Positions 29,341 through 53,330 of a stretch of DNA of 64,000 nt are shown here, piece after piece; position 1 is the first letter of the stretch; every line of letters starts with the position of its first letter. The position numbers and the translations under genes are program-made. The DNA comes from Bacilli bacterium (GTDB lineage: Bacteria; Bacillota_I; Bacilli_A; RFN20; CAG-288): positions 1 to 64,000 of the forward strand of contig JALCRV010000008.1 of assembly GCA_022652945.1 (NCBI GenBank), written 5' to 3'. The notes under the pieces were generated by a model, which ran no database searches, had not been told where the DNA came from, and saw nothing but the letters and a program-made list of their open reading frames with translations.

Positions 29341-29445
29341 AAAAAACGGCTTATTAAGGTGTGAGCCTAAACAAGCCATTTAATTAGTATTTATCGGCTC
29401 TTTTCAGTTTTTCCTCAGCGACAGTGCAATCACCGTCTCCACATG
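29341..29445 (-). repeat. att-like rlmCD-end repeat R1 (outermost)
   Basis: Minus strand, 29445 to 29404: in-frame HVETVIALSLRKN-stop. It is followed by a ggctt/aagcc hairpin shared with R3 (29347-29380), probably the original terminator of the donor rlmCD gene. The bases to the right of the core resemble the type-B cassette end (GATGAGAGGAAACA). Confidence 0.75.
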
Positions 29446-29733
29446 TGTAGAAACGATATATTAGGGTGAGGCTGATACAAGAAAACTGATGAGAGGAAAC
29501 ACTTCTTACTTAAATAGTGCTTCATTAGCGAGGCAATCATATGGAAATATCGTATCTTCTTCCTCAGATCATCGAATCCAACAACATGGGCCTATGCACC
29601 AATTCATGCAGGATCTAACGATAAGGAATCAAAACTATTTGAAACGCATTAAAAAATATACTTCTCTGGCAATCCTTAGACTTTTTAAGATACGAAAATA
29701 AAAGATTATAGGTTACTGATTTTCCTTTTCCTG

Positions 29734-30780
29734 TTATTTCTTCAAATATCTTGTAGAATGGCCTTCACCGATTTTAATGATTTTTCCGAGTCTGACCATT
29801 TCTCCGAGAACGGCTTCGATGGTCGTGACGGAAACATCAGGAACAAGCGTCTGGAGGTCTTTCTTGGAAACGGGTATGAACGATGAGAGGACTGCCGCCT
29901 CAATTCTTTGCTTCTTGCTGGCTTTTTGAGTGTTGAAGATAACGAATCTTTTATCCAGTTCCTTATAACATAATAATAATGTGAACATAAAATCCTTCAT
30001 ATATGGAACGTAGTCGTTTTGATTCTCGTGCCAGCCAACAGATGATTGCCTGAGGGCTTCGTAATATTCTCCTTTTCGGAGGTTTATCTGCTCTTCAAAG
30101 GAAATATATCTTCCAATGTCAAATCCGTGCTGATAGAGAAGCAGAAGGCTTAATAATCTGGACATCCTTCCGTTCCCATCACTAAATGGATGGATGCAGA
30201 GAAAATCTAGAATGACACATGGAATAAGAAGCAGAGGATTGATGGAATAATCGTTGGAGGCAGCTAGATAAGAAAGACAAAGCTGGTCCATGGCTTTGGG
30301 TGTATCTAAGGCATTTGTTGGCTGCCATCTCAGTCTTTGGGTTCCGTCAGCCAATTTTTCTATTATCGCGTTGTCTCTGTCCTTGAACTGCCCTTTGTTT
30401 GGGATGCTCGTCAAATGCAGCATGATTCCATGTAACCTTTTTATCTCATTGATGGAGAAGGCTATGTTTTTACCATTCCGGTGGATTTCATCGAGTGCAT
30501 CCTTATATCCGGCAATTTCCTGTTCGTTATGGTTGAGAGGGCTGCTCCCATGGCTGACTATGGCATTGATTCTTTCATCAGTGGCGACAATGCCTTCGAT
30601 AGCATTGCTGCCTTTAACCGATTGCACGATAGCTAACTCATGAAGCTTTGTGAAAACATCTGGGTACTGTTTCTTCTGCCAATCTTCGTGAGATTTGAGC
30701 TCCATTAGAGCTCCGCTTATAGTGATGAATTCAGCAGGAAGGCTTACATTTTTTAAAAACAGGTAATCAAATCTTTTCAT
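29734..30780 (-). CDS. Fic-family protein with inhibitory helix and winged-helix tail
   Basis: A 348-residue protein; I place the start at 30780 because AGGAGAAAGAATTT precedes that ATG, which gives MKRFDYLFLKN. The active loop is HPFSDGNGRMSRL (~200), complete with catalytic His. An N-terminal inhibitory-type motif SNAIEG lies near residue 67, and the C-terminus (~290-348) looks like a winged helix. Fic enzymes with an inhibitory Glu transfer AMP to Ser/Thr/Tyr hydroxyls when released; targets vary. It is the only gene of the cassette between repeats R1 and R2. It may act as a toxin or a regulator. Confidence 0.88.
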   Translation of the reverse strand: MKRFDYLFLKNVSLPAEFITISGALMELKSHEDWQKKQYPDVFTKLHELAIVQSVKGSNAIEGIVATDERINAIVSHGSSPLNHNEQEIAGYKDALDEIHRNGKNIAFSINEIKRLHGIMLHLTSIPNKGQFKDRDNAIIEKLADGTQRLRWQPTNALDTPKAMDQLCLSYLAASNDYSINPLLLIPCVILDFLCIHPFSDGNGRMSRLLSLLLLYQHGFDIGRYISFEEQINLRKGEYYEALRQSSVGWHENQNDYVPYMKDFMFTLLLCYKELDKRFVIFNTQKASKKQRIEAAVLSSFIPVSKKDLQTLVPDVSVTTIEAVLGEMVRLGKIIKIGEGHSTRYLKK

Positions 30781-30898
30781 AAATTCTTTCTCCTGCATAT
30801 ATTGTAGCAAAAAATATGCAGAAGGAAATGCGAAATTATTGATCTTATGCATAATATTTTACGTTTGGTATGTACAAGACATTATCTTTTTCAATTCT

Positions 30899-30981
30899 CT
30901 ATTTTTGCCTCAGCGACAGTGCAGCCACCGTCTCAACATGGGTTGAGACGATGAAATGCATGTATGCCCCTGATCTAGAGG
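30899..30981 (-). repeat. att-like rlmCD-end repeat R2 plus type-C cassette end
   Basis: Minus strand, 30940 to 30899: HVETVAALSLRQK-stop. To the right, 30941-30981 is the cassette end containing CTAGAGGCT, similar to R8 (45361-45401) and more distantly to the type-A ends. Confidence 0.75.
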
Positions 30982-31051
30982 CTATGAAGGTGGATATTTC
31001 CCCTATAGCGTCTACTCAAAAGTTTTTTGGATTATTAAAATTGAAAAATGA

Positions 31052-31080
31052 CTGCAAAAAATCGATTAGAATGCTATAAT
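31052..31080 (+). promoter_or_regulatory. likely promoter of the duplicated ATPase gene
   Basis: A perfect TATAAT at 31075-31080 with a weak CTGCAA 17 bases upstream; the start codon is 45 bases downstream with CGGAGG before it. The same sequence is present at 45472-45500. Confidence 0.5.
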
Positions 31081-31124
31081 AACGATGAAAACGGAATACA
31101 ATTCAGCTTTAATCGGAGGCCAAT

Positions 31125-32384
31125 ATGATCTACATCCACAGGGCTATTGAAGACTTTATTCTGAAAAACGCCGGCTCTTTCCCGTGCATCACCCTGTACG
31201 GGCCGCGCCAAGTCGGAAAGTCGACCACCGCCGACGTCCTTTTCGGCAACCGCTTCAAAGAGGTGAACCTGGACGGTTTAGTCGACCGCGCGTTGGCCAA
31301 TCAGAACCCCGCCCTGTTCCTCGACACCTATGGCTGGCCCCTCATTATCGATGAGGTTCAGAAAGCCACGCCCCTCCTTTCCGAGATCAAGAAAAAGATC
31401 GATTCACAGCGCAAACTTTGGCGAGAAGAGGGAAAGAAGCAGGAGCTGATGTACGTCCTTACGGGGTCTTCCCGTTTCGAGCTCGTCAAAGCGGTCACCG
31501 AATCCCTCGCCGGCCGCTCGGCCATGCTCGAGATGACCTACCTCGACCAAAGCGAGGTCGCCTCGCTTAAGGAAAAACCTTTCACCACGGACATCAAAGA
31601 ACTCCTCAAGCGAGAGGCGAATGCCCAGGCCCCGAAACGGACGAGGAACGAGATCTTCGACGATATTTGGGGTGGCTTCATGCCCGATGTCATCGCCGGC
31701 AACAGCGACCGCTCCGTCTACTACCCGTCCTACATCGATTCCTATATCCAGAAGGACATCCAGAGCATCCTGAGGCCGGAGAACGAAATCCGCTTCCGGG
31801 ACTTTATGAGGATCATGGCCTTCCGCACGGCCCAGCAAGTCGTCTATTCCGACATCGGAAATCTCATCGGAATCGATGCCAACACCGCCAAGAGTTGGAT
31901 TTCTTTATTGGTGAGTTCCGGCATGGCGATCCTGCTCGAGCCTTACCTCCCCAAGATAAGCAAGCGTATCGTCAAAGCGCCGAAGTTTTATTTTCTTGAC
32001 ACTGGCTTGGTCGCCGATCTTTGTGGCTGGCCTAGTGGCAAGATGATTGAGTTTGGGGCGATGTCCGGAGCCTTCTTCGAGACCTTCGTCGTGGCGGAGA
32101 TTGTCAAGAACCTTCGCAACCACGGTATCAAGACCGAGGACCATCTCTTCTACTACCGCGACATCGACCAGAAAGAAGTCGATCTCCTCTATGTTGACCG
32201 CGGCGAGATCTTCCCGATGGAGATCAAAAAATCGCCTAATCCTTCTAAGCCGACGAAGAACTGGAGAGTGCTCGAGAAATACAATCAGCTGATTCTTCCA
32301 GGGCTTGTCATCGACACCACAGACAAGATCACGCCGATTAACGCTATGGCCTACACATACCCGGTTTCGTTACTAGGTCTATAA
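31125..32384 (+). CDS. AAA_14 / DUF4143 ATPase, cassette copy 1
   Basis: A 419-residue ATPase: Walker A GPRQVGKST (~residue 26), Walker B PLIIDEVQKA (~73), sensor VLTGSSRFELV (~113), a helical arm, and a DUF4143 domain with nuclease-like residues EVDLLYVDRGEIFPMEIKKS (~358-377). GC content is clearly higher than the surrounding chromosome. CGGAGG ribosome site. Identical to the protein at 45545-46804. Cassette between R2 and the decayed border near 32567. The family's role is unresolved; its spread on cassettes suggests a selfish or defence-linked function. Confidence 0.88.
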   Translation: MIYIHRAIEDFILKNAGSFPCITLYGPRQVGKSTTADVLFGNRFKEVNLDGLVDRALANQNPALFLDTYGWPLIIDEVQKATPLLSEIKKKIDSQRKLWREEGKKQELMYVLTGSSRFELVKAVTESLAGRSAMLEMTYLDQSEVASLKEKPFTTDIKELLKREANAQAPKRTRNEIFDDIWGGFMPDVIAGNSDRSVYYPSYIDSYIQKDIQSILRPENEIRFRDFMRIMAFRTAQQVVYSDIGNLIGIDANTAKSWISLLVSSGMAILLEPYLPKISKRIVKAPKFYFLDTGLVADLCGWPSGKMIEFGAMSGAFFETFVVAEIVKNLRNHGIKTEDHLFYYRDIDQKEVDLLYVDRGEIFPMEIKKSPNPSKPTKNWRVLEKYNQLILPGLVIDTTDKITPINAMAYTYPVSLLGL

Positions 32385-32540
32385 CAAGAGAAAAAGTCCT
32401 TGATAAACTCAGTATCTAGGACCAAAAACCATTGAGATTGCATTAAGTTTTTCAACGTTTGACGATAGAAAAGCTTAATGTCTGCAGATTCAGTTCTTTA
32501 ATGTTTGTGGATTTTGAATAAGAAAACTTTCCATAGAATC

Positions 32541-32633
32541 TTTCAGTGACAACTCACATACATCGTGATTCTTATATTAAAGTCCTTATTGAGAAAATTT
32601 GGTGGCGTCCTAGGAAGTTGACGAGAGGAACAT
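32541..32633 (-). repeat. decayed rlmCD-end repeat with type-B end (R2b)
   Basis: Minus strand around 32567-32541 reads ..DVCELSLK.., matching the VCELSLR tip of R9, but the HVET core is damaged. It is followed to the right by GGAAGTTGACGAGAGGAACA, the type-B cassette end also seen beside R3, R7 and R9. I read this as an old, mutated border. Confidence 0.5.
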
Positions 32634-32641
32634 TTGGACTT

Positions 32642-32690
32642 AAAGTCTACTTTTAAAGTCTACTCAAAGTCTACTTTTAAAGTCTACTTA
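32642..32690 (+). repeat. short direct repeats AAAGTCTACT
   Basis: Four copies of AAAGTCTAC start at 32642, 32655, 32666 and 32679 (steps of 13, 11, 13). Another AAAGTCTACTC lies at ~38315. They sit in the small cassette between R2b and R3 that carries no gene. Confidence 0.6.
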
Positions 32691-32847
32691 TGAGTTGCAA
32701 AAAAAGTTTCCTTTATATGTTATAGGAAAATTTGGAATTATCCTCCTTTCTAATAATGCCGAAATTTGATTTCATCTCAAACAGTTCACCCGTGTCTACT
32801 TGGCTTTCGGCTCTTTCCGAGGAAATAGTAAAAAGACCATTTTGGCA

Positions 32848-33018
32848 CAAAAAACGGCTTACTCAGGTCTAAGCCTAAGCAAGCCATTAAGTTTGTATTT
32901 ATCGGCTCTTTTCAGTTTTTCCTCAGCGACAGTGCAGCCACCGTCTCAAGATGGGTTGAAGCGTTGGAGCGAATGGTATTGGGGGATGTCGGCACGAGGA
33001 AGTTGACGGGAGGAACAT
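32848..33018 (-). repeat. att-like rlmCD-end repeat R3 plus type-B cassette end
   Basis: Minus strand, 32953 to 32912: HLETVAALSLRKN-stop, with the ggctt/aagcc hairpin shared with R1 after it (32854-32885). The right side (32954-33018) is the type-B end with GGCACGAGGAAGTTGACGGG. Confidence 0.75.
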
Positions 33019-33025
33019 TTTGGGT

Positions 33026-33496
33026 TTAAAGACCCATATCATTGGCGATTGCTTTCCTATGGAAGTCGAGTATCTTCTCTCTAAGATCATCCGGCTCTAT
33101 AATCGTCATCATTTCGCCGAACTGAGTGAAATATATCATTGAAGCGAAATCATTGGTCCGGAAGGTGACGATGCTTCCTTCCTCCTTCATTATGAGAGGC
33201 CTGTTCTTGTAGGCCAGATGGAGCTTTACCAGGCCCTCTTTAGTGAATTTTGCTTTCATTTCATATGTTCCGTACTCGGAGAACTGCGCTCCGAGGCGGA
33301 TCATCTCCTCAAGCTTTTCCGTCTCTTCTTTTGAGAATGAGAACCTGTCGCTTGCAAATGAGACCCCAATGATCTTGCTGAGCCTCAGCGTCACTAGATT
33401 TCCGCTGTTATCCCTGTACATCTTTCCGAGCACCTAGTTGAAGATCCTGTCGCTGGTCTGGCAGACCTTATACGGATCGAAATAGTATTGAAACAT
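33026..33496 (-). pseudogene. WYL-type regulator remnant
   Basis: The 135-residue open part (33433-33026) resembles the end of a WYL domain plus the following WCX-like region (LVTLRLSKIIGVSF, then FAKFTKEGLVKLHL-like strands, FGEMMTIIEPDDL). Extending upstream in frame to 33496 gives MFQYYFDPYKVCQTSDRIFN, one TAG stop, then VLGKMYRDN. So the WYL domain is cut by a nonsense codon and the N-terminal DNA-binding part is gone. It resembles the C-terminal half of the family represented by 47528-48307. Confidence 0.55.
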
Positions 33497-33529
33497 TTGT
33501 TCTTATAGCGGTCATAGGTCCTTATATAT

Positions 33530-33736
33530 ATTGGGTATGCCCCTAAAATCGTTCAGTCTGAGGTTAATAATATTAAACGAGACGGTATAAAGGTTTTCCG
33601 CTGCGACGATTGTCCGATAAACTATTTAGGATGGAAGAAGAGACATCCTTTCTGTCACAGAAAATCCTATCGTGATGTCGACTGCAGGAAAGGGAAGACT
33701 TTTAGTAACTGCTATCGCAAGAAAGGAAGGGAATAA
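33530..33736 (+). pseudogene. 3' remnant of the orphan nuclease-tip gene
   Basis: The frame IGYAPKIVQSEVNNIKRDGI... to KKGRE-stop aligns along its whole length with the last ~70 residues of the protein at 38695-39174 (shared FRCDDC, YLGW, HPFCH, SYRDVDCRKGKTFSNCY). The N-terminal nuclease-like half and start are missing. An immunity-like gene follows two bases later, as in the intact pair. Confidence 0.75.
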
Positions 33737-33738
33737 CC

Positions 33739-34113
33739 ATGTACGATCGCTTGATCTATTCGGAACGGGAAATCAAGGCGGAGGAAATCGTTGCTGCCTT
33801 AAAGAAAGCCTATCCAGAAGTAAAAACTTCGAAAGTGGATGAATTAAATACGTTTTCATTTGAAACCAAAAACAACTATGGCTATTTTTTCCTTCAGGTC
33901 CGCGAAAAGAATGGAAGCTTAAAGGATTATGATGTCACGGAAGAAAACCTCGGTGACAAGATTTCGTATTTCAAAGATAAGGAACATGTCTTTTGCTTTG
34001 AGATTGATGGTTCCGATCCCGATTTCATCGATCACGTCACGGACGATATCCTTTCGACGATTCCAGGCGCGGTGATTGAAGGAAAAAACGGGAAACTGTA
34101 CGAAAAGAAATAG
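33739..34113 (+). CDS. small immunity-like protein, paralogue of 39177
   Basis: A 124-residue acidic protein, near-identical at both ends to the one at 39177-39551 (start MYDRLIYSEREIKAEEI; end GSDPDFIDHVTDDILSTIPGAV) but divergent in the middle (residues ~28-70). It follows a broken nuclease-tip gene. Conserved ends with a changed middle are typical of immunity proteins that track toxin variants. No known domain is recognised. Its stop codon touches repeat R4, so it is the last gene of its cassette. Confidence 0.7.
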   Translation: MYDRLIYSEREIKAEEIVAALKKAYPEVKTSKVDELNTFSFETKNNYGYFFLQVREKNGSLKDYDVTEENLGDKISYFKDKEHVFCFEIDGSDPDFIDHVTDDILSTIPGAVIEGKNGKLYEKK

Positions 34114-34223
34114 TCTAAGCCTACCTGGATTGGTGGTTATAGACCTTCTGACGAGAATAACTGCTTGAAGTTATTTTGTTATCGTGTTTTACCGTAGTTT
34201 TAAACTGGACCCGTCTCCACATG
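34114..34223 (-). repeat. att-like rlmCD-end repeat R4 (decayed tip)
   Basis: Minus strand, 34223 to 34200: HVETGPV-stop; small deletions have shifted the tip compared with HVETVVSLKLR. The left part TCTAAGCCTACCTGGATTGG starts directly after the preceding stop codon and matches R5, R6, R8 and R11. The right side is a type-A end (ATACCTAGAGGCTGGGCGGG). Confidence 0.7.
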
Positions 34224-34391
34224 TGTTGTGTGCTCTCGGGGTAACTGTGGCCCATACCTAGAGGCTGGGCGGGAGATATTTTTAACATTGGGGGGAGCGC
34301 AAATGGCAAGCCCCTTGAGAGTGCTTTGCTCGTAGATCGGATTAACGAGGTTTCGCCTCGTAAAATAGAAACTGAAAACGACTTTTGAACT

Positions 34392-34628
34392 CTATTTTCT
34401 CCTCAAAGGGAGAATAGCGTCAAACGATATTGAAAGATTTTCGTTACCAGACCTCCTTTGAAAATCACTTAACAAACATCGCACTATCATCTCCTGAACG
34501 TCCAATGGAATCCAGCAGACCCCGTCCCATTTTTCTTTAAAAAGCTCTTCGGAAAGCAAATGACTTTTTCCGACTTTTTCCATTCCGAAAACAGGCTGTA
34601 GTTTTTTCAACCTGTACTCAAAAAGCAC
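34392..34628 (-). pseudogene. possible ATPase remnant
   Basis: A 78-residue frame containing a P-loop-like GMEKVGKSHLL followed by SEELFKEKWDGVCWI, recalling the start of an AAA_14 ATPase. Nothing resembling the rest of the family follows. A similar P-loop scrap (CATGATGGAAAAAG on the minus strand) lies near 51850. Low confidence. Confidence 0.35.
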
Positions 34629-34712
34629 ATGCTTTTTGCGATATGAGACATTAGATTATGGAAAACGTGATGTGCCAATATGAAGATAACGCTTCAAAGA
34701 CGCGAAGGGTTT

Positions 34713-36089
34713 TTATTTTCCGCTTTTTTTGGCTAATAGGCTCAAATCTGGGAATATATCCTCTTTTAACTGAAAACAATTTTCCTTTAAAAATGGCATA
34801 AGGTAAATCGGATAATACGTTACCCGGTCTTTTTTCTCAACATTGTGTTCGGAGAAAACGATGGCCTTTTTTAGGCCATAGCGTGGATTGTCGAGCACAT
34901 AATCAAGCGAAGCGTGTGTTTTATATGACGATCCGCTTTTGACTTCAATCGGGAGAACTGCGTTGGCTGTTTCTATGAGGAATTCGATTTCACCATGGTG
35001 ACGCTGCGAGAAATAGAAAAGAGGGTAGCCCAATAAAGCTAGCTCCTGGGCTACTGCGTTTTCAAAAAGAGCGCCGCGGTTGAAAGAACTATCATGGTCG
35101 ATGATGGCGTTTCTGGCAGGTGTGCCATAGCGATAACAAAGAAGCCCGACATCAGAGAGATAGAGCTTTTTAAAAGTTTCGTCAATGTTGGCTAACAGAG
35201 GGATGAGGGGCTCAGAAACTCTGGTGCATTCAAGTGCTACACCGGATTTGCTCAGCCAAAGAAAATCATCTTCCAGAGAAGCAAAGCTCTTCGCTCTGCC
35301 GAGAAAATTGCCTGGAAACCGCTTGTTTTCTTGGCCTAAGTAAGCGGGTAGAGCATCATAAATTCTTGTTAGATGTAGTTTCTTACTCAGCTCGTACTGG
35401 GAAAAATCTTCAGTGTAGTTTTTCAATATTTTATCGAAGATTGCATCTTGGGCACTTGTTTGATGGCTCTGAGCGTAACTGGCGACAACTTCAGGCATCC
35501 CTCCTACAATAAGGTAGCGGTGAAAGAGTTCAATCAAGGTCTCGTGAATCCCATCATCGATTTTTTCTTCCGCTATATAAGCGTGTCTTAGTTTGTCGAT
35601 GATGCTCTCGTCGATTGATGTCAGGGCTCGTGCAAATTCGTAAAAGCCCATTGGATATACATGGATTTCGTTGAGCGAGCCAACCGGCCAATCGTCAATG
35701 GAATTTATTTCAACACCTAGCAAAGAACCTGACATAGCATAAAGATAATCCGTTTTATTGACGAGATCCTTAATGAAAGTGATGGTGTTTGGCGCTTTCT
35801 CAATTTCATCTAGAAAAATCACCGTTTTTCCTGGAATAAAGCTCACGCCCCCTGAATTAAAACGAATAATGTCAATTACCTCTTCTGGACTATTGGCTTT
35901 TTCTAGACGCGATGCGATATCTGGATGCATCTTTAGATTGATTTCGACTAGATTCAAGCCTGCACGTGGGACCAAGGTCTCGATAAGCGTACTTTTTCCT
36001 GATTGGCGAACGCCATAAAGCAAGAGGGCGGATTTGCCCGGATGTCTAAGCCAACTATTAATCTGATCTTCATAAATTCGCCAGAGCAT
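34713..36089 (-). CDS. AAA_14 / DUF4143 ATPase
   Basis: A 458-residue ATPase: Walker A GVRQSGKST (~25), Walker B VIFLDEIEKA (~90), sensor AMSGSLLGV (~117), and DUF4143 with HGEIEFLIE...PIEVKSGSS (~365-388). Related to the gene at 27635 (shared SGSLLGVE, HIYPMxFYEF-type strand) more than to the duplicated ATPase. It is the gene of the cassette between R4 and R5. Three evenly spaced TGTCA boxes lie upstream. Confidence 0.87.
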   Translation of the reverse strand: MLWRIYEDQINSWLRHPGKSALLLYGVRQSGKSTLIETLVPRAGLNLVEINLKMHPDIASRLEKANSPEEVIDIIRFNSGGVSFIPGKTVIFLDEIEKAPNTITFIKDLVNKTDYLYAMSGSLLGVEINSIDDWPVGSLNEIHVYPMGFYEFARALTSIDESIIDKLRHAYIAEEKIDDGIHETLIELFHRYLIVGGMPEVVASYAQSHQTSAQDAIFDKILKNYTEDFSQYELSKKLHLTRIYDALPAYLGQENKRFPGNFLGRAKSFASLEDDFLWLSKSGVALECTRVSEPLIPLLANIDETFKKLYLSDVGLLCYRYGTPARNAIIDHDSSFNRGALFENAVAQELALLGYPLFYFSQRHHGEIEFLIETANAVLPIEVKSGSSYKTHASLDYVLDNPRYGLKKAIVFSEHNVEKKDRVTYYPIYLMPFLKENCFQLKEDIFPDLSLLAKKSGK

Positions 36090-36125
36090 GACTGAATTAT
36101 AGCACTTCTCCAGTTAATACACAAA

Positions 36126-36203
36126 ATGTCACAAATTTAAAATGGCGCAAAAGCAATAATGTCATAATTTTAAGTATGTCTGGAATCCGGAAATGTCATA
36201 AAT
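36126..36203. promoter_or_regulatory. three phased ATGTCA boxes upstream of ATPase gene
   Basis: ATGTCAcAA, ATGTCATAA and ATGTCATAA start at 36126, 36159 and 36193, spaced 33 and 34 bases (about three DNA turns), directly upstream of the minus-strand ATPase start at 36089. The spacing equals that of the paired palindromes upstream of the ATPase at 27635. Likely binding sites on one face of the helix. Confidence 0.5.
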
Positions 36204-36303
36204 GTTTAGCTTGCCTTAGGCGCCGGCTTCTCTGGTGGTTTTGCTTTCGGTGCTCTTTGGTGCGACTATTGGTGCTATGAATGAGAATCATATTAAAAGA
36301 ATT

Positions 36304-36605: not shown

Positions 36606-36675
36606 GGGGGACATATCAAAGCGGGGGTGGATCGAAGCCTTCCAAAGCGCTGCATTGCCCTATTCGTCCTTTAAA

Positions 36676-37070: not shown

Positions 37071-37100
37071 GGACAGTTGTTGGACAGTTTTCGGACAGTT
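37071..37100 (+). repeat. three GGACAGTT repeats at 11-bp steps
   Basis: GGACAGTT begins at 37071, 37082 and 37093, exactly 11 bases apart, just beyond the stop codon of the Fic-like gene. Another phased protein-binding-like array within the same cassette. Confidence 0.55.
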
Positions 37101-38119: not shown

Positions 38120-38120
38120 T

Positions 38121-45401: not shown

Positions 45402-46938
45402 CTATGAAGGTGGATATTTCCCCTATAGCGTCTACTCAAAAGTTTTTTGGATTATTAAAATTGAAAAATGACTGCAAAAAATCGATTAGAATGCTATAAT
45501 AACGATGAAAACGGAATACAATTCAGCTTTAATCGGAGGCCAATATGATCTACATCCACAGGGCTATTGAAGACTTTATTCTGAAAAACGCCGGCTCTTT
45601 CCCGTGCATCACCCTGTACGGGCCGCGCCAAGTCGGAAAGTCGACCACCGCCGACGTCCTTTTCGGCAACCGCTTCAAAGAGGTGAACCTGGACGGTTTA
45701 GTCGACCGCGCGTTGGCCAATCAGAACCCCGCCCTGTTCCTCGACACCTATGGCTGGCCCCTCATTATCGATGAGGTTCAGAAAGCCACGCCCCTCCTTT
45801 CCGAGATCAAGAAAAAGATCGATTCACAGCGCAAACTTTGGCGAGAAGAGGGAAAGAAGCAGGAGCTGATGTACGTCCTTACGGGGTCTTCCCGTTTCGA
45901 GCTCGTCAAAGCGGTCACCGAATCCCTCGCCGGCCGCTCGGCCATGCTCGAGATGACCTACCTCGACCAAAGCGAGGTCGCCTCGCTTAAGGAAAAACCT
46001 TTCACCACGGACATCAAAGAACTCCTCAAGCGAGAGGCGAATGCCCAGGCCCCGAAACGGACGAGGAACGAGATCTTCGACGATATTTGGGGTGGCTTCA
46101 TGCCCGATGTCATCGCCGGCAACAGCGACCGCTCCGTCTACTACCCGTCCTACATCGATTCCTATATCCAGAAGGACATCCAGAGCATCCTGAGGCCGGA
46201 GAACGAAATCCGCTTCCGGGACTTTATGAGGATCATGGCCTTCCGCACGGCCCAGCAAGTCGTCTATTCCGACATCGGAAATCTCATCGGAATCGATGCC
46301 AACACCGCCAAGAGTTGGATTTCTTTATTGGTGAGTTCCGGCATGGCGATCCTGCTCGAGCCTTACCTCCCCAAGATAAGCAAGCGTATCGTCAAAGCGC
46401 CGAAGTTTTATTTTCTTGACACTGGCTTGGTCGCCGATCTTTGTGGCTGGCCTAGTGGCAAGATGATTGAGTTTGGGGCGATGTCCGGAGCCTTCTTCGA
46501 GACCTTCGTCGTGGCGGAGATTGTCAAGAACCTTCGCAACCACGGTATCAAGACCGAGGACCATCTCTTCTACTACCGCGACATCGACCAGAAAGAAGTC
46601 GATCTCCTCTATGTTGACCGCGGCGAGATCTTCCCGATGGAGATCAAAAAATCGCCTAATCCTTCTAAGCCGACGAAGAACTGGAGAGTGCTCGAGAAAT
46701 ACAATCAGCTGATTCTTCCAGGGCTTGTCATCGACACCACAGACAAGATCACGCCGATTAACGCTATGGCCTACACATACCCGGTTTCGTTACTAGGTCT
46801 ATAACAAGAGAAAAAGTCCTTGATAAACTCAGTATCTAGGACCAAAAACCATTGAGATTGCATTAAGTTTTTCAACGTTTGACGATAGAAAAGCTTAATG
46901 TCTGCAGATTCAGTTCTTTAATGTTTGTGGATTTTGAA
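45402..46938 (+). repeat. 1,537-bp duplication, copy 2
   Basis: Reads identical to 30982-32518. Flanks differ at both ends, including the rlmCD-end tips (R8 and R9 versus R2 and R2b), so only the cassette interior is duplicated. Confidence 0.9.
45545..46804 (+). CDS. AAA_14 / DUF4143 ATPase, cassette copy 2
   Basis: The 419-residue protein is identical to that at 31125-32384, including the promoter TATAAT (45495-45500) and CGGAGG site. Two identical copies 14.4 kb apart with diverged surroundings mean a very recent duplication or gene conversion. See copy 1 for motifs. Confidence 0.88.
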   Translation: MIYIHRAIEDFILKNAGSFPCITLYGPRQVGKSTTADVLFGNRFKEVNLDGLVDRALANQNPALFLDTYGWPLIIDEVQKATPLLSEIKKKIDSQRKLWREEGKKQELMYVLTGSSRFELVKAVTESLAGRSAMLEMTYLDQSEVASLKEKPFTTDIKELLKREANAQAPKRTRNEIFDDIWGGFMPDVIAGNSDRSVYYPSYIDSYIQKDIQSILRPENEIRFRDFMRIMAFRTAQQVVYSDIGNLIGIDANTAKSWISLLVSSGMAILLEPYLPKISKRIVKAPKFYFLDTGLVADLCGWPSGKMIEFGAMSGAFFETFVVAEIVKNLRNHGIKTEDHLFYYRDIDQKEVDLLYVDRGEIFPMEIKKSPNPSKPTKNWRVLEKYNQLILPGLVIDTTDKITPINAMAYTYPVSLLGL

Positions 46939-47014
46939 CAAGAGAGATAATTATCGACATTGTATCTACAGGTAAAAATACGGTTTTCCGTTTTCGCAAT
47001 ATTTTTCTAAATGA

Positions 47015-47126
47015 TTAGTGTTTGTCGGCACCTCTTAACGACAATTCGCATACAGTCTCAACATGCATGGATACGATGGAGTGAATGGTGTTGGGGGTAT
47101 GTCGGCACGAGGAAGTTGATCTGAGG
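47015..47126 (-). repeat. att-like rlmCD-end repeat R9 plus type-B cassette end
   Basis: Minus strand, 47065 to 47015: HVETVCELSLRGADKH-stop, a longer and different tip from the others. The right side is type B (GATGGAGTGAATGGTGTTGG, GGCACGAGGAAGTTGATCTG). Confidence 0.75.
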
Positions 47127-47142
47127 AAATGGAAAACCAAAC

Positions 47143-47388
47143 TTAGAAAAGGGAATAATCGTTGTCTCCCAGAGACTCAAAGATATCGGATACCTTGATG
47201 CCATGATAAGTGGAACCCCATAAGGTTTCTACATCCGGGACATCTAAAGTATCCTGATAGAATTCGCAGAAGGAAATATAGTCTTTTCTTTTGTCATTAT
47301 AGTAGGTTACAGAATACTTCTTACCTTGATAGGTAAGTTCGATTTCGAAACTGTCTTTAACAAGACCTTTTAATTTTTCAATGTTCAT
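47143..47388 (-). CDS. 81-residue immunity-like protein
   Basis: A small acidic protein (KLKGLVKDSFEIELTYQGKK, then YISFCEFYQDTLDVPDVETL and TYHGIKVSDIFESLGD). No known domain is recognised. Its start overlaps the stop of a 51-residue basic gene (ATGA), so the pair is translated together. A remnant of the same gene is at 41508-41583. Confidence 0.65.
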   Translation of the reverse strand: MNIEKLKGLVKDSFEIELTYQGKKYSVTYYNDKRKDYISFCEFYQDTLDVPDVETLWGSTYHGIKVSDIFESLGDNDYSLF

Positions 47389-47540
47389 TTCTTGTGCCGT
47401 TTTCTATACGAAGACTCATTCCTTGAAGAAGCGTATCCTTTTCCGTTGTAGCTTCCCCAGCCTCGATAATCATTCCTTTCCTTTCTTTTCTTTTCATACC
47501 AGGAAGACTTGGCTTTTCTGAACTTTCTCAGTCCGAACAT
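47385..47540 (-). CDS. 51-residue very basic protein, possible toxin partner
   Basis: Starts at 47540 (MFGLRKFRKAKSSWYEKKRK) and ends HKK at 47385. About one third Lys/Arg. It overlaps the 259-residue gene upstream by 13 bases and the 81-residue gene downstream by ATGA, which supports real translation despite its small size. Strong opposite charge to its downstream neighbour suggests a toxin-antidote or nucleic-acid-binding pair. No known family recognised. Confidence 0.5.
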   Translation of the reverse strand: MFGLRKFRKAKSSWYEKKRKERNDYRGWGSYNGKGYASSRNESSYRKRHKK

Positions 47541-48307
47541 GGCTTACCCTCCTCTTTGTCTTCTTTAGACGTTTCTTTGTCGATGAAGTCCATGACGGAC
47601 TCCATATCATCATCAGTCACTTTAATTTTTTTGCTTGTCTTGCTGACTCGGCTGACCTGCCCTAAATTTACTAGGTATACTTCCTTCTTGTCTTCTGATA
47701 TTGCTGGTATCTGGTTTCCTCCTTCTTCAAGAATAGGCTCGATGCTTAACGGGACAGCGTTGATTATTTCTTTTGTGTCCATATAGAAAGAAGCAACTTC
47801 ACTGAGCTTTATGCATTCCTCTATGCTGCTGATAATCTTATAAGACTTCAGCATCTCTCTCTGGAAGAAAGGCTTAGAGGCGTATTCGTTAAGCAGGGAC
47901 TTGATATAGGCTGTGAATCCCATATCTACTTTCCGCAAGACGGAATCGTGGATATAGATAAAATCATTTTTGTGTTCCTTGTTTATTCGGAAAGAAAGGT
48001 TGGTGGAGGCATCAGTAGAGAAGTCGAAAGAATCGAGATAGATGCCGTAAAGGCTGTTTTCAATCGCGCTTACAAGCTTCTCATCACCTTTGTTCGCCTT
48101 CAGAAGCCTCTCATGAAGATCTTCTCTGTACGAATTGAGGTTTGGCACAAGTTCGTTGATATAGCCTCCGACGTTGGGCTTCTTGTCTTTTATGAACTTG
48201 AAACGATAGGCATCGAAGCAAAGGATGTCATAGATTCCTGTCGAGATGTCGAAGTTTGTCGTTTCTTTGAACAGATATCTTTCGTATTCCACAAATAAAT
48301 TATACAA
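47528..48307 (-). CDS. RHH/WYL-type regulator, possibly shortened
   Basis: A 259-residue protein. The N-terminal ~70 residues have a ribbon-helix-helix-like plan (GIYDILCFDAYRFKF, then VGGYINELVPNLNSYREDL). The middle holds MGFTAYIKSLLNEYASKPFFQRE, typical of the region before a WYL domain, and residues ~185-245 look like a small WYL-type barrel (KKEVYLVNLGQVSRVSK). The longer C-terminal part seen in the remnant at 33026-33496 is absent. First gene of a coupled operon with the 51- and 81-residue genes; divergent from the nuclease-tip pair. Family assignment is by similarity of layout. Confidence 0.55.
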   Translation of the reverse strand: MYNLFVEYERYLFKETTNFDISTGIYDILCFDAYRFKFIKDKKPNVGGYINELVPNLNSYREDLHERLLKANKGDEKLVSAIENSLYGIYLDSFDFSTDASTNLSFRINKEHKNDFIYIHDSVLRKVDMGFTAYIKSLLNEYASKPFFQREMLKSYKIISSIEECIKLSEVASFYMDTKEIINAVPLSIEPILEEGGNQIPAISEDKKEVYLVNLGQVSRVSKTSKKIKVTDDDMESVMDFIDKETSKEDKEEGKPCSD

Positions 48308-48473
48308 CTTGTATAGATAATATTTAACATTTGCATTTCATTATATTATAAAAAAGGCTATTTTAAGCAAAAGTTGTGCATAATTTTGCTCAATCAAAAT
48401 AGACACAATCTATTTATTTAATGGACTTATTATATTCTTGTAGGCAGAAAAATTATAAAGGAGAAGCAATTTG

Positions 48474-48860
48474 ATGAATCGATATAAAAGAGTCCCTTCC
48501 CATGAAAGCAAGGATTTTGGGAAAAAGTACGAGGATGAGGTTGCTAGAATAATAGGTAAGTTAATTAAGATAACATCAAGAGGTAAGGTGTATTATAAAA
48601 ACGGGAGGCGTTTTTGCGAGACTGATATTGAAACAAAAAGCAGCGCAATCGAGGTTAAGAGTGGCCGCGGGAATGACATGCTCAGTCAATTGAACAGGTA
48701 TTCTCAAGTGACAAAAAAAGAGCCGATTGGATTTGGAAAAAAGCTCAGATTACCTAACAAAAGAGAAATAAGAAAAAGATTTAAGTTATTTGAAGACGAA
48801 GATTCTTTAACAGATTATTTAGTTTCAAAAGGCGACGGAAAAAGATGGAGGAAAAAATAA
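48474..48860 (+). CDS. orphan PD-(D/E)XK nuclease-like toxin tip
   Basis: A 128-residue basic protein starting at the ATG at 48474 (GGAGAAGCAATTTG before it). A nuclease core is seen as KKYEDEVARIIGKL, then FCETDIETKSSAIEVKSGRG and LNRYSQVTKKEPIGFGKK; ExxK-type acidic and Lys residues are present. It shares this core with 38695-39174 but has a different tail (LFEDEDSLTDYLVSKGDGK). No export signal. One base separates it from the next gene. It resembles the toxin tip of a polymorphic or contact-dependent toxin with its immunity gene. Confidence 0.68.
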   Translation: MNRYKRVPSHESKDFGKKYEDEVARIIGKLIKITSRGKVYYKNGRRFCETDIETKSSAIEVKSGRGNDMLSQLNRYSQVTKKEPIGFGKKLRLPNKREIRKRFKLFEDEDSLTDYLVSKGDGKRWRKK

Positions 48861-48861
48861 T

Positions 48862-49245
48862 ATGAATGACATTACATATTTAACGAAATCAATTATCAGC
48901 AAGGAAGAATATAGTTCAATAATTTCTGGCATCGATGGCGCCCATCTTGAAGATAACGGAAACGGTCAGCTTTGGATTGATCTCGATGGTAAGAAAGGAA
49001 CTCAGATGATCATTACATTGGTCACCATTAAGGATGGCATCATTGATTTTGGATTTAATCCTAAGCTGTCTTATAGAGCATCTGAATTGCCATTCGAAAA
49101 GCCGGTATTTAATATAGCTCAGTACAGAAATTCCGCTCTAGCTTCAATAGTCATTCGTGCCTTGGGAGAAAAGCACCCGGAATTGAAGTATATGTCGGAC
49201 TATATGGAAAAATTCGAGCCAGTATCCAAGAAACTAAAATTATAA
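48862..49245 (+). CDS. immunity-like protein
   Basis: A 127-residue protein following the nuclease tip after one base (TAA t ATG). Mixed alpha/beta, acidic in the first half (GIDGAHLEDNGNGQLWIDLDG). No recognised domain. Position suggests it neutralises the nuclease-like product. Confidence 0.65.
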   Translation: MNDITYLTKSIISKEEYSSIISGIDGAHLEDNGNGQLWIDLDGKKGTQMIITLVTIKDGIIDFGFNPKLSYRASELPFEKPVFNIAQYRNSALASIVIRALGEKHPELKYMSDYMEKFEPVSKKLKL

Positions 49246-49261
49246 TGTAATAAGCTTTCAC

Positions 49262-49372
49262 GCGCTAAATAATGTTCTCGGATTATTTGATGAGACTGGA
49301 TTTTACCTTCTATCAAAAGGGGATGAAAAACCTCGAATGTATTCCAGAATAAAATATTGTAGGAAAAAATAA
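49262..49372 (+). pseudogene. 3' remnant of a second nuclease-tip gene
   Basis: The frame ..NNVLGLFDETGFYLLSKGDEK.. to CRKK-stop resembles the C-terminus of the 48474 protein (LFEDEDSLTDYLVSKGDGK ... RKK-stop). Like it, it ends AGGAAAAAATAATATG at the start of an immunity-like gene. Only ~36 codons remain. Confidence 0.6.
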
Positions 49373-49373
49373 T

Positions 49374-49799
49374 ATGAAAGATGCTGAATTTATAGTTGAT
49401 GGGACGCTAACTGAAGAATACCTCATTGGAATCATCAAAGAGTTGAAATGGAATTTTGCGACTAAAGAAGAGTCAGATGGCAAGAATATAAATGTATTAG
49501 ATCACAATGGTAATTTCTTGGGAACTATTTACTTAACGAGAATCAAGCAAAATGGTGAAGTCTCTTATGGCGAAGACTCATTGCAAATCGAAAAATATTT
49601 TGAAGATTGTCAATTTAAAATGGCTCAGCCTATTATATATTTTATTGACTTCACTTCGGAGACACGCCATTTTCCCAAGAATCTTATTAAGCGGATGGCC
49701 AAGGATCATCATGAGATTTGGTTTTGGATTGAAGGTTCGGATTATCTTAGACCTTATTGCGGTTTCGCAAGATTGTTCAAGAAAAAACTGCCCATATAA
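49374..49799 (+). CDS. immunity-like protein of a lost toxin tip
   Basis: A 141-residue protein of unknown family (LTEEYLIGIIKELKWNF at the start; aromatic-rich end DHHEIWFWIEGSDYLRPY). It directly follows the remnant of a nuclease-tip gene with the same junction sequence as the intact pair, so it is probably the orphan immunity gene of that lost partner. Confidence 0.6.
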   Translation: MKDAEFIVDGTLTEEYLIGIIKELKWNFATKEESDGKNINVLDHNGNFLGTIYLTRIKQNGEVSYGEDSLQIEKYFEDCQFKMAQPIIYFIDFTSETRHFPKNLIKRMAKDHHEIWFWIEGSDYLRPYCGFARLFKKKLPI

Positions 49800-49827
49800 T
49801 AACATTAGGCTAAAAATAATGTGTTTA

Positions 49828-49892
49828 TAGTGAATCCCTAATGCTGGACTTTAAATAGTATTGTAGCCCAGGTCCAACTATTGGGTTCACTA
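49828..49892. repeat. 21-base imperfect inverted repeat
   Basis: TAGTGAATCCCTAATGCTGG at 49828 pairs with GTCCAACTATTGGGTTCACTA ending at 49892, leaving a ~22-base loop. It lies 28 bases after the immunity-like gene. It could be a terminator (TTTTCTTTT follows) or the end of a small mobile element. Confidence 0.5.
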
Positions 49893-50056
49893 CAGTTTTC
49901 TTTTCTGCCATTTTTATACACATCTTAATATGTTCCAAATGTCGCACTTTTGGCGAAATTCACTGAAAAAGTATTTATTAGCCTTAATTTTACTGCAAAA
50001 GCCCGTTACCCACAAAATATCCAATGTCGCCAACATGCCACCAACAGGACAATGGA
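49893..50056. other. gene-free stretch before R10
   Basis: No gene supported; it forms the end of the R9-R10 cassette, leading into the rlmCD-end copy R10. Confidence 0.4.
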
Positions 50057-50155
50057 CTACTTCTTTAACACTAAAGCAACGACCGTCTCTAAAGGGGTTG
50101 AAGCGTTGAAGTGAATGGTATTGGGACGAGGTTGACCAAAGGAAGTGGATTTGTT
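50057..50155 (-). repeat. att-like rlmCD-end repeat R10 plus type-B cassette end
   Basis: Minus strand, 50095 to 50057: PLETVVALVLKK-stop, a fourth tip version. The core has lost the HV residues (AAAGGGG instead of ACATGTG). The right side is type B (GTTGAAGTGAATGGTATTGG). Confidence 0.7.
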
Positions 50156-50232
50156 GAGATTGCAAATAATAATCAATTCTTAGAGATTTTTCTATTTTTG
50201 ATGCCAAGTCTTTCCGAATAAGGTACTTTCTC

Positions 50233-50454
50233 TTAGCCCAGCCTCAGAACTATATTGGCATTAATAATGTTCTGAGCTTCCTTTGGAAGATGTGAGATTT
50301 CATCAATCGAGATGAACTTCTGCTTCTCCGAGCTTTCGTAAATTTTAAGCAGCTGAGCGATTGACTGTGTTTGTATCTGCTTGAAGAAGAAAGAGTCATG
50401 GCAGACAATTGGCAGTTTTGTCAGGTTAATCATTGCGAGGTCGAAAACTATACG
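50233..50454 (-). pseudogene. C-terminal remnant of a DUF2326-type ATPase partner
   Basis: The frame RIVFDLAMINLTKLPIVCHD to the end ..NIINANIVLRLG-stop resembles the last ~70 residues of DUF2326 proteins (RecN/SMC-like ATPases found in some defence operons): FDLAL..L.KLP...HDS, then FISIDEISHLPKEAQ. It is cut off upstream by a TAA at about 50452, where the toxin-tip gene on the other strand begins. Confidence 0.6.
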
Positions 50455-50717
50455 TTAGGGAAATCTTCTCTGATGATCCGGACAAAGCCGCAAAGGACTT
50501 CTATGATAAAATAGGATTAGGCAGAGAATATTTGAAATTTGATTCGAATGATCTAGAGATTGTAAAAATGATGGACGGATCATTAATTGTTTACCGCCCT
50601 ATTACATCTTCTCCTAACAGTCCGGCGATTGAAATTAACATTAAGTATAGTTCAGATAACTGTGGCTTAAAAAGCCAGAAAATACATTTTGTTAAAATAA
50701 AGAAAGGAAACAAATGA
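50433..50717 (+). CDS. orphan polymorphic-toxin C-terminal tip
   Basis: A 94-residue frame from a TTG; recognisable sequence starts SDDPDKAAKDFYDKIGLG and continues DGSLIVYRPITSSPNSPAIE to QKIHFVKI. This pattern (DDPxKAAxDFYDKI ... MxDGxxxxYRxxxSSxxSPAxxIN ... QKIHFVK) is that of toxin tips at the end of large LXG/Rhs-type proteins in Firmicutes. Here it has no carrier and overlaps a foreign gene remnant, so the 5' end has been cut and expression is uncertain. Its product would need its own start. An immunity-like gene follows. Confidence 0.65.
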   Translation: MRGRKLYVREIFSDDPDKAAKDFYDKIGLGREYLKFDSNDLEIVKMMDGSLIVYRPITSSPNSPAIEINIKYSSDNCGLKSQKIHFVKIKKGNK

Positions 50718-50718
50718 A

Positions 50719-51336
50719 ATGAGCGACACAAGAATAAGAAAAAACGAAATAGCTCTTCTGAAAAGCACTATTGGACAGAAATTGATCAAATACAGGCACG
50801 ATCCTTTTTGCCACACGCCAACATTTTCGATTCAGGGTGAAGTCTTTTTCTCTAACGTAATTGTACAAATCAAATGTGATGAATACCCATTTGATTTCTT
50901 TGAGGCTGGAACGGAAGATATTTCAGCCTTGTCATTTAGAACTATTAAAGAAGGTGAAGCGGTCTCTGCGGCCATAGGAATAAAGCAAATAGATTTTCCA
51001 GTAAATGAAGAAGTACACGACATTTGGATAGTCGAGGATGACATTCAGGAATTTGTCAAAGGAAAACCAGGTAAGACCTATCAGTTGACGAGAGGAATCG
51101 TATTTGTTCTCGAGGACTGTCAGTTAGCATTTGAGAAAGATGTTTGGCTATCTGTGGAAATCATCCCTCACAAGGGAAAAGATGTCCTCTCGAAATTCGA
51201 TCCTCTCGGCAACGACCTTGGTGGTTGGCCTAAAGGCTGTATGTCGAAGAACAAGAGAACTGTCTACAGTCTTCTTGATGGTCGAATCGTCTCAGAAGAG
51301 GAAAATGAGTCGCATGAGGATCCTGACGCTGATTAA
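50719..51336 (+). CDS. immunity-like protein for the toxin tip
   Basis: A 205-residue acidic protein that starts one base after the toxin-tip stop, with AAAGGAAACAAATGA before the ATG. Unrecognised family; beta-rich middle and an acidic end (EEENESHEDPDAD). Order, spacing and charge fit the cognate immunity protein. Confidence 0.65.
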   Translation: MSDTRIRKNEIALLKSTIGQKLIKYRHDPFCHTPTFSIQGEVFFSNVIVQIKCDEYPFDFFEAGTEDISALSFRTIKEGEAVSAAIGIKQIDFPVNEEVHDIWIVEDDIQEFVKGKPGKTYQLTRGIVFVLEDCQLAFEKDVWLSVEIIPHKGKDVLSKFDPLGNDLGGWPKGCMSKNKRTVYSLLDGRIVSEEENESHEDPDAD

Positions 51337-51339
51337 TTA

Positions 51340-51484
51340 GGACTCTAAATAAAAATATCTGAAGGAAAATTCGTTTCCTTAATGGACTGCTTTCTCAAAC
51401 GAAAACTACACCTATTATCGCCGTTTATCAGATTGATAAGGGACAAACGTTTCCAATAATGATTACTAATGATGTGAAAGGAAA
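51340..51484 (+). pseudogene. possible toxin-tip remnant before DUF4926 gene
   Basis: The frame KTTPIIAVYQIDKGQTFPIM then ITNDVKGK-stop ends at 51488, just before the DUF4926 gene, in the position held by toxin tips elsewhere in the array. No start and no recognised domain. Confidence 0.3.
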
Positions 51485-51490
51485 ATAGTT

Positions 51491-51688
51491 ATGCAATTAA
51501 AAGAGAACGATCGCGTTAGAACCTTAGTTGAAAAAGAGGGACATCCTGTGGGAACTCTCGGCGTTTTAGTTAGCATTTACGCGGATGGAAAGGCAGGAGA
51601 GGTGGAGGTCTGGGACAAGACGGGTTACCCCATCGATGTTGTGACCTATGAGCTTTCCGAGCTTTCCATTGTCCCTTTAGATAAGTAA
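51491..51688 (+). CDS. DUF4926-like small protein
   Basis: A 65-residue protein with the pattern of DUF4926: LKENDRVRTLVEKEG, GTLGVLVSIYADGKAGEVEV, then VVTYELSELSIVPLD. Members often lie directly after toxin-tip genes and are thought of as immunity or antitoxin partners. GAAAGGAAAATAGTT precedes the ATG. Last gene of the cassette next to rlmCD. Confidence 0.72.
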   Translation: MQLKENDRVRTLVEKEGHPVGTLGVLVSIYADGKAGEVEVWDKTGYPIDVVTYELSELSIVPLDK

Positions 51689-51896
51689 AAGAAAGAAGGT
51701 TTAGAGGTTTTTAAGATTGCTTGACAAATGTTAAAAAATACTGCGTACAAACGATGGTAAATAATTCCTTAATTTTCAAAGCAGTAAACTTAAAAGAATC
51801 TTATCAAAACCGATGATACTTTTCCCGACTTTTTCGAACTTTTTCCATCATGAAAACGAACCTTTGTTATTTGCGGCTTACACCCCTGAAACCCAG

Positions 51897-52007
51897 TCTC
51901 AACCTACCTAGACTGGAGTCGTAGACATGTCAATTGGTAGAACTGTTTAAAGTACCCTTTTTATCGGATAATTATCGTAATTTTAGGCTGACCACCGTCT
52001 CAACATG
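51897..52007 (-). repeat. rlmCD 3' end and right border R11 of the array
   Basis: This is the repeat at the true gene: minus strand 52007 to 51972 encodes HVETVVSLKLR-stop of rlmCD. Downstream of the stop it continues to TCTCAACCTACC with the shared GTAGACATGTCAATTGGTAG block. To the right of 52007 the methyltransferase body begins instead of a cassette end. Confidence 0.85.
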
Positions 52008-53330
52008 TGAAGTCTGGGGAAACATATCAACCGGTGTAACGGAGACTAAATCATAAGTATCCTTTAAGTCCGCTAAGTCTCTAGCTAACGTGACCGGGTT
52101 ACAAGAAATATAGATGATCTTTTTAGGCTTAATCTCTTTTAAGGCTAGGAGGAATTCCGGAGTGGAGCCTTTGCGCGGAGGATCCATAAAGACCACATCG
52201 AAATGGGCCTTCTCTTTATTCTCAAGCAGGTAGGTAGTACAGTCGGCCTGGATAAATTCGGCGTTAGGGATCTTATTCATCTTTGCATTCAGTCTGGCAT
52301 CTCTGACCGCTGAGGGCTCAATCTCTACTCCGAGGACTTTTTTAGCTTTAATCGAAGCGCATAATCCGATAGTCCCCGTCCCGGAATAGGCATCCAAGAC
52401 TTCCTCTTGACCCGTTAAGCCCGCTTGATCTAAAGCGGTCTTATATAGCACTTCGGTCTGCAGAGGATTAGTCTGGTAAAACGAGCGAGAGGAAATCAAA
52501 AAGGAAAGATTAAAGATCGAATCTTTGATCTTCCCAGAGCCGAATAAAACATCTTCCTGCTCTCCGAGAATGACATTAGTATGTCTTGTATTGATATTCT
52601 GGACAACGGTTGTGACCTCAGGGAACATCTTGACGATCTCTTTAGCGAGATTGACTTTCCCGTAGAAATCCCTATTGGAAGTCACCAGGACGACCATCGT
52701 TTCTTTAAAATGTAAAGACTCCTTAATCAGGATATGCCTGATTAACCCTCTTCCTTTATCTTCATCGTAAGGCGGGATATGGTATTTAGTCAGCAGTTTC
52801 TTAATCCCTTTAAGGATCTTTTCCGCTTCCTCTGTTTCGATTAAGCAGTCCTCAAGGGGAACGATCTGATGGGTATTCTCTTTAAAAAAGCCGGAGACAA
52901 CTTGGCCTTTAACTAACCTTATCGGAACTTGGACCTTATTGCGGAAACGATAAGGGGAAGCCATCCCTAAAGTAGGGCTAGGCTCAAAATCGATCTTTGC
53001 GAACTTATGGAGAAGATTTTTTACTTTGTCTCTTTTATATTCCAACTGTCCTTGGTAGGAAAGGTGCATCAAAGAGCAGCCACCGCATTCCTGATAGTAA
53101 GGACAAAGAGGCTTAACTCTTAAAGGGGAATCATTAAATCTTCTTTTTACTTTAATAGCGGAGATCTCGTCTTTATATGTCTCGACTTCTAATTCAGCCT
53201 TTTCTGAAGGCAGCAGATTATCGACAAAAAGGGTCTGTCCGTTTAAACGGACGATCCCTTTGCCGTTATCATCGATAGCGACACATTCGCCTTCTAAAGT
53301 CTTGTTTCCTTCTCTTTTAGGGTATTCCAT
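51972..53330 (-). CDS. rlmCD: 23S rRNA (uracil-C5)-methyltransferase, RlmCD/RumA type
   Basis: A 452-residue TrmA-family enzyme; I place the start at 53330 (MEYPKREGNKTLEGECVAIDD) because the longer frame adds unrelated residues, although no strong ribosome site is seen. N-terminal TRAM domain (~1-60), iron-sulphur Cys cluster CPYYQECGGC (~80-89), SAM motif DAYSGTGTIGL (~313), MDPPRKG (~381), catalytic Cys in YISCNPVTLARD (~407), and the end DMFPQTSHVETVV typical of the family. It makes m5U in 23S rRNA. The 3' end is the target of the cassette array; the last codons are supplied by the border repeat. Confidence 0.9.
   Translation of the reverse strand: MEYPKREGNKTLEGECVAIDDNGKGIVRLNGQTLFVDNLLPSEKAELEVETYKDEISAIKVKRRFNDSPLRVKPLCPYYQECGGCSLMHLSYQGQLEYKRDKVKNLLHKFAKIDFEPSPTLGMASPYRFRNKVQVPIRLVKGQVVSGFFKENTHQIVPLEDCLIETEEAEKILKGIKKLLTKYHIPPYDEDKGRGLIRHILIKESLHFKETMVVLVTSNRDFYGKVNLAKEIVKMFPEVTTVVQNINTRHTNVILGEQEDVLFGSGKIKDSIFNLSFLISSRSFYQTNPLQTEVLYKTALDQAGLTGQEEVLDAYSGTGTIGLCASIKAKKVLGVEIEPSAVRDARLNAKMNKIPNAEFIQADCTTYLLENKEKAHFDVVFMDPPRKGSTPEFLLALKEIKPKKIIYISCNPVTLARDLADLKDTYDLVSVTPVDMFPQTSHVETVVSLKLR

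Follow-up and report, generated by a model that had tools for sequence, protein, structure and literature searches.

What has brought copies of the end of a single gene together, one after the other, in the chromosome of an uncultured Bacilli bacterium? The window, that is, the whole stretch of 64,000 nucleotides analyzed here (contig JALCRV010000008.1, positions 1 to 64,000), belongs to a genome of 2.09 Mb in 20 contigs, 92.7% complete. It contains rlmCD, which codes for a 23S rRNA m5U methyltransferase (51972-53336, minus strand; TIGR00479 rumA match; open frame extending to 53489). The protein ends in HVETVVSLKLR-stop, and the 3' end of its gene is the target and current attachment site of a cassette array. 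This array is very probably a stack of cis-mobilizable elements (CIMEs) devoid of recombinase, inserted at the rlmCD 3' end by a large serine recombinase (LSR) of CcrB-like type and specific for rlmCD, which acted in trans or has since been lost.

Including rlmCD itself, 11 copies of the rlmCD 3' end were present in the window, ten of them orphan and all on the minus strand. Their core, CATGTTGAGACGGT or a close variant, starts on this strand at 29445, 30940, 32953, 34223, 36416, 39662, 41434, 45360, 47065, 50095 and 52007. A 58-nt repeat profile run on the window gave precisely 11 matches (E 1.7e-14 to 9e-9), the next candidate having an E value of 0.16. With a degenerate core pattern (up to two mismatches), 25 matches were obtained for 10.4 expected, a number reached in none of 100 shuffles. 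When the whole genome was searched, no second array was found elsewhere, the near-core pattern giving three isolated single-mismatch matches only. The original prediction had announced about ten minus-strand recurrences over 22.7 kb; the profile bears out the ten orphan copies and brings the span to 22.6 kb, in which ten cassettes of 1.3-3.9 kb each are delimited. At 8 of the 10 orphan copies, an RlmCD-like C-terminus with its stop is still in frame, as had also been proposed for most borders; the endings include VVSLKLR-stop, VASLKIR-stop, VAALSLRQK-stop, VIALSLRKN-stop and VVALVLKK-stop. Copy 34223 is frameshifted and ends in HVETGPV-stop, and copy 47065 reads through to ...LRGADKH-stop.

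Each border consists of a core of 16 nt (CATGT-NGANACN-GTGG), a left arm upstream of it and a right arm downstream. Numbered from rlmCD outwards, all on the minus strand, the borders combine two groups of left arms (A and B) with four types of right arms (X, Y, Z and W). Left arm A is joined to right arm X at border 6 (39550-39752, core at 39662), border 7 (36304-36506, core at 36416, with CCTCTAGG at the spacing found in LSR elements) and border 8 (34103-34313, CCTCTAGG and the frameshifted core at 34223). A variant of A is joined to X at border 4 (45244-45420, core at 45360) and to part of Y at border 10 (30840-31000, core at 30940). Left arm B is associated with X at border 5 (41322-41497, core at 41434), with Y at border 9 (32849-33031, core CATCTTGAGACGGT at 32953, intrinsic-terminator-like hairpin at 32888-32853), with Z at border 3 (46944-47130, core at 47065, short hairpin ACGGAAAACCGTATTTTT read by eye) and with W at border 2 (50079-50157, degenerate core CCTTTAGAGACGGT at 50095, right arm PLETVVALVLKK followed by a stop). 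At border 1 (51895-52012, core 51992-52007), the rlmCD 3' end itself is followed by X. The outermost copy, border 11 (29341-29457, core at 29445), stands apart by its left side and carries right arm Y (HVETVIALSLRKN followed by a stop), again with a terminator-like hairpin. Since left and right arms assort independently at a short core, the junctions are points of site-specific recombination rather than products of tandem duplication.

Within groups, arm identity was mostly 70-93%, to be compared with shuffled sequences averaging 58% (99th percentile 67%). Over 60 nt, some pairs lie near the control range, namely the right arm of 34223, the left arm of 50095 against 41434 and 47065, and A against its variant; for some of these, longer alignments were significant. 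The right arms have in common a hydrophobic pattern, V-x-x-L-x-L/I-R/K, encoded by largely different DNA, as should be the case if they are replacement C-termini. Thus the earlier proposal that the borders are copies of the rlmCD 3' end is retained in that they align to rlmCD ends, and amended in that the four right-arm types do not all derive, at the DNA level, from the present rlmCD end. Given the terminator-like hairpins in right arms, we infer that the outermost copy (29341-29457) was once the chromosomal end of rlmCD itself.

Could the repeats be tandem duplicates of the rlmCD 3' region that later diverged, or have arisen by homologous recombination between them, with no site-specific recombination at all? 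Homology does extend across some borders (36296-36609 and 39542-39855 at 83% identity; 33569-34313 and 39007-39752 at 75%), and the pair 30925-32523 and 45345-46943 looks gene-converted. However, the cargo between borders is mostly unrelated, the arms swap partners at the core, and orphan copies of the same type flank LSR genes in other genera, so that we regard such an origin as very unlikely.

The relatives point to the class of enzyme involved. The rlmCD gene was present in 25 of 29 genomes, and orphan ends in its own orientation were found downstream of it in G001, G002 and G003 (same genus as the window), in G011, G016, G020 and G039, and in the Clostridiales record L117. With the strict motif H[VI]ET[VI], nine distinct copies in the same orientation and none in the opposite one were detected in 761 kb of DNA downstream of 75 loci; in most of these 75 relatives, no orphan copy was seen. 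In G020, a 578-residue LSR (domains Resolvase, Recombinase and Zn-ribbon) is encoded between rlmCD and the orphan copy, within an element that also encodes McrBC, a methyltransferase and a D5-type primase. Its best NCBIfam match is CcrB (E 1.6e-42), at 146 bits against an equivalog cut-off of 900 bits, and compared with solved structures it resembles a conjugative-transposon recombinase and LSR integrases. In G001, GmrSD-type genes accompany a broken LSR. Furthermore, LSR homologs or fragments (43-98% identity) were found in 13 further stretches, in 10 of which rlmCD is present with the LSR at most about 6 kb from its 3' end; in the other three (L177, L184 and L185), the fetched DNA contained no rlmCD. 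In phage and plasmid records all LSR homologs were below 60% identity, the best among the matches listed being at 34-37%, and those in viral contigs were also below 60%. Conserved flanking genes, used as a guide to the empty site, gave few matches near rlmCD in relatives.

Two of the orphan ends call for a separate remark. In G011 (L050:3124-3200), a more extended part of the RlmCD C-terminus stands before the copy and is closer to the rlmCD of another family (G142-like, L180) than to that of the host, which suggests the transfer of a foreign rlmCD end. The Clostridiales record (RUG055; 11324, 12535 and 18406) has two orphan rlmCD ends downstream of the gene, with a longer common upstream stretch, and possibly represents a second, independent stack.

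A direct link between the window borders and the LSR elements is provided by the left arm. The 279 genomes of the order were searched for CCTCTAGG followed by 31-35 nt and the core, the reversed pattern being used as control. Four occurrences, with a spacing of 33-34 nt, were obtained in 3 of the 279 genomes and none with the control: two are borders of the window, the third is the orphan end of the G001 LSR element, and the fourth belongs to the LSR-remnant element of G039. At 41-42 nt from the core, the CCTCTAGG left arm is exact at two window borders and variant at others, and it is absent from the borders of group B. No left arm of this LSR type was found in viral contigs. The G001 and G039 elements, whose hosts belong to different families, also have about 3.3 kb in common (a block of 2.05 kb with 94.7% identity and another of 1.28 kb with 90.7%). 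This identity starts at the GTGG past the rlmCD core and stops at the CATGT of the orphan copy, the outer halves differing as host sequence does. These limits place the crossover inside the core, roughly within NGANACN (about 7 nt).

Several observations nevertheless weigh against the insertion of the cassettes by an rlmCD-specific LSR. First, no Resolvase-domain protein was found in the window's own genome (92.7% complete, as said above), and the LSR query also gave none; for this reason the enzyme presumably acted in trans or has since been lost. Secondly, left arm B had no match in the other 22 genomes of the family (23 searched); being thus confined to the window's genome within its family, it may indicate that the B cassettes use another recombinase. 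Finally, the direct repeat of 1.6 kb formed by 30925-32523 and 45345-46943 is 99.25% identical (12 differences in 1599 positions), and 11 of the 12 differences fall in 41 nt of att arm beside the core. Because of this clustering, gene conversion between older copies appears to fit the pair better than recent re-insertion, an explanation that was disfavoured once the differences had been mapped.

The absence of a recombinase inside the array, together with many small cassettes often made of one or two genes, would also be compatible with an integron-like array, in which a tyrosine integrase captures cassettes via folded single-stranded attC sites. The own genome encodes two full-length tyrosine recombinases (two further matches are fragments), but these score as XerC/XerD and reach only 133 and 138 bits with the integron-integrase model, far under its cut-off of 265. 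Moreover, the 11 borders have no common fold (z-scores from -3.2 to +1.1, with differing structures), the cargo is in mixed orientation, and the att arm matches that of LSR elements. An integron-like origin is therefore extremely improbable.

We return to the LSR-built stack, for which the following mechanism is proposed. A cassette circle would carry an attP site composed of the left arm, the core and a right arm encoding a replacement RlmCD C-terminus with its stop, sometimes followed by a terminator-like hairpin. The LSR would recombine this circle at the core of rlmCD, or at that of any resident copy, and the cassette would be inserted. The incoming right arm would then supply a new end for rlmCD or for the neighbouring cassette, the previous end being shifted outwards as an orphan; the outermost copy (29341-29457) would be the old native rlmCD end. 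At the level of sequence comparison, this scheme is supported by the junction positions, the arm shuffling, the linkage of LSR and rlmCD in relatives, the common attP arm and the crossover interval. The enzyme that built the window array was presumably the G020-type LSR or a close relative, and a single integrase specificity may extend to the left arm B borders. With 11 att-like borders and ten units without recombinase, the array has the composition by which CIMEs are defined. The original prediction, according to which elements restoring the end of their target gene were inserted repeatedly, is thus upheld by the same-orientation orphans, the LSR located between rlmCD and an orphan, and the matching left arm in relatives. 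The two findings that might have spoken against it, repeats unrelated to rlmCD ends or repeats present in relatives lacking the array, were not encountered: alignment matches the repeats with rlmCD ends, and in most of the 75 relatives no orphan copy was found. The present analysis adds the class of the enzyme, its absence from the own genome and the defence-type cargo.

The cassettes have GC contents of 36.8-48.8% and genes in mixed orientation. Cassette 1 (50096-51991), next to rlmCD, encodes small proteins, one of which (50719-51336, plus strand) has no family match. Cassette 2 (47066-50079; 36.8% GC) encodes proteins of no family at 47528-48307 (minus), 48471-48860, 48862-49245 and 49374-49799 (all plus). 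Cassette 3 (45361-47049) carries an AAA_14/DUF4143 gene (45545-46804, plus) near-identical to the PADLOC PDC-S01-matching gene at 31125-32384, and cassette 4 (41435-45344) a LysR regulator, a cyclophilin-like protein, an FMN reductase and an alpha/beta hydrolase. The three AAA_14/DUF4143 genes with PDC-S01 matches of their own are located in cassette 5 (39663-41418; gene 39888-41222, minus, E 2e-98), cassette 7 (34224-36400; gene 34713-36089, minus, E 8e-139) and cassette 9 (30941-32937; gene 31125-32384, plus, E 1.6e-82), the last also containing a remnant half-border with left arm B at about 32612-32645. Cassette 6 (36417-39646) encodes a Fic-domain protein (37184-38119, minus; weakly matched) and two small unassigned proteins. 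Cassette 8 (32954-34207) contains a WYL/WCX fragment (33026-33433, minus) and a protein of 124 residues in common with cassette 6. Cassette 10 (29446-30924) encodes a second Fic protein (29734-30852, minus; PADLOC SoFic, E 2e-31).

Altogether, the array holds four AAA_14/DUF4143 ATPases, two Fic proteins and several proteins without family; a PHROGs search of the unassigned cargo gave one weak match. An intact PADLOC-matched anti-phage candidate is present in 5 of the 10 cassettes, where PDC names denote candidate defence by association and the functions are predicted only. Homologs of the cassette 10 Fic protein (37-51% identity) lie in relatives downstream of or near rlmCD, or near an LSR, and orphan copies are adjoined by cargo homologs in G002 (Fic) and G039 (a DUF4143 ATPase, 33% identical to that of cassette 5). 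Anti-phage selection may maintain the cargo.

Is the array still a set of mobile units, or the remains of larger ones? Successive ordinary LSR elements or integrative and conjugative elements (ICEs) could have decayed by deletion to stubs, leaving a fossil stack; this is a variant of the LSR-built stack, compatible with it. Such a history agrees with the lack of any match to LSR, relaxase or conjugation families among the array proteins scanned, with the broken LSR of G001 in the same genus, with the deleted border remnant at 32612-32645 and with the one frameshifted core. On the other hand, most cores, arms and defence-type genes are intact and compact, and small two-armed units without recombinase are what trans-mobilized cassettes are expected to look like. 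We consider the fossil stack a serious possibility, short of being the probable one. The cassettes of the LSR-built stack may still be able to move, but the probability that they no longer do so is substantial.

Some features in and around the array were also recorded. Short repeats, AAAGTAGACTTT and AAAGTCTACTT, occur at 32640-32713, at 38303-38339 and at about 29190, both within the array and immediately beyond it, close to several genes of the AAA_14/DUF4143 or Fic type, of which they are possibly an operator. Just beyond the outermost border, ATPase-type genes (AAA_14/DUF4143, ATPase_2, DUF234) are found at 27635-28987, 26610-27269 and 22701-23204 without rlmCD repeat; the stack may once have extended this far, these genes being an older section that has eroded. 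The window starts with an open frame of 2590 residues (36-7808).

How does this array relate to known systems? The staphylococcal cassette chromosome (SCC), the resistance cassette of methicillin-resistant Staphylococcus aureus, and its Enterococcus counterpart (ECC) are likewise inserted by an LSR at a conserved gene for an rRNA methyltransferase, rlmH, whose 3' end is the target and where att sites form direct repeats, and the best NCBIfam match of the related LSR is CcrB. Several att sites may be present at rlmH, as may composite islands (PMC6222049). However, the target here is rlmCD, the array has no ccr genes (the related G020 LSR scoring far below the CcrB cut-off given above), and the array is made of ten small cassettes, where SCC has a few islands tens of kb in size. 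In Dehalococcoides, the ssrA 3' end recurs as over a dozen direct repeats downstream of this gene, with a CcrB-like LSR, many islands lacking an integration module and being read as possible cis-mobilizable elements (PMC3146451). The differences are a tmRNA target gene and dehalogenase cargo there, whereas the rlmCD cassettes are smaller, all are without recombinase and the end that is replaced codes for protein. At rumA, streptococcal ICEs target the same gene family by a single serine integrase and exchange its 3' end (PMC4701971); there, the att site is inside the integrase gene, the rumA frame is altered, and the elements are full ICEs rather than a many-cassette stack. In the rlmCD case, the C-terminus is restored in frame and attP lies outside the LSR gene. 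In Listeria, prophages are integrated beside rlmCD, between this gene and fosX (PMC8386393), in contrast to the stack of small recombinase-less cassettes reported here. No description of an rlmCD cassette stack was found in the literature searched, which consisted of open-licence papers. Thus, rumA/rlmCD is already known as an insertion site of LSRs, and ssrA as a place where LSR islands are stacked; what is new is the combination, at rlmCD, of many recombinase-less, defence-leaning cassettes.

A bolder reading, which we put forward tentatively and consider rather unlikely, would make rlmCD the serine-recombinase counterpart of an integron: cassettes of one to four genes, rich in anti-phage candidates, would be gained, lost and shuffled by the LSR of passing elements, each insertion renewing the C-terminus of the methyltransferase. 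More generally, SCC-like stacking is not restricted to rlmH or ssrA, and the ten junctions offer a dense natural series that shows which arms an rlmCD-directed LSR accepts and where it crosses over. Should the cassettes still be mobile, families of Bacilli could exchange small defence genes that have no recombinase of their own, and a housekeeping enzyme that modifies the ribosome would repeatedly receive new C-termini.

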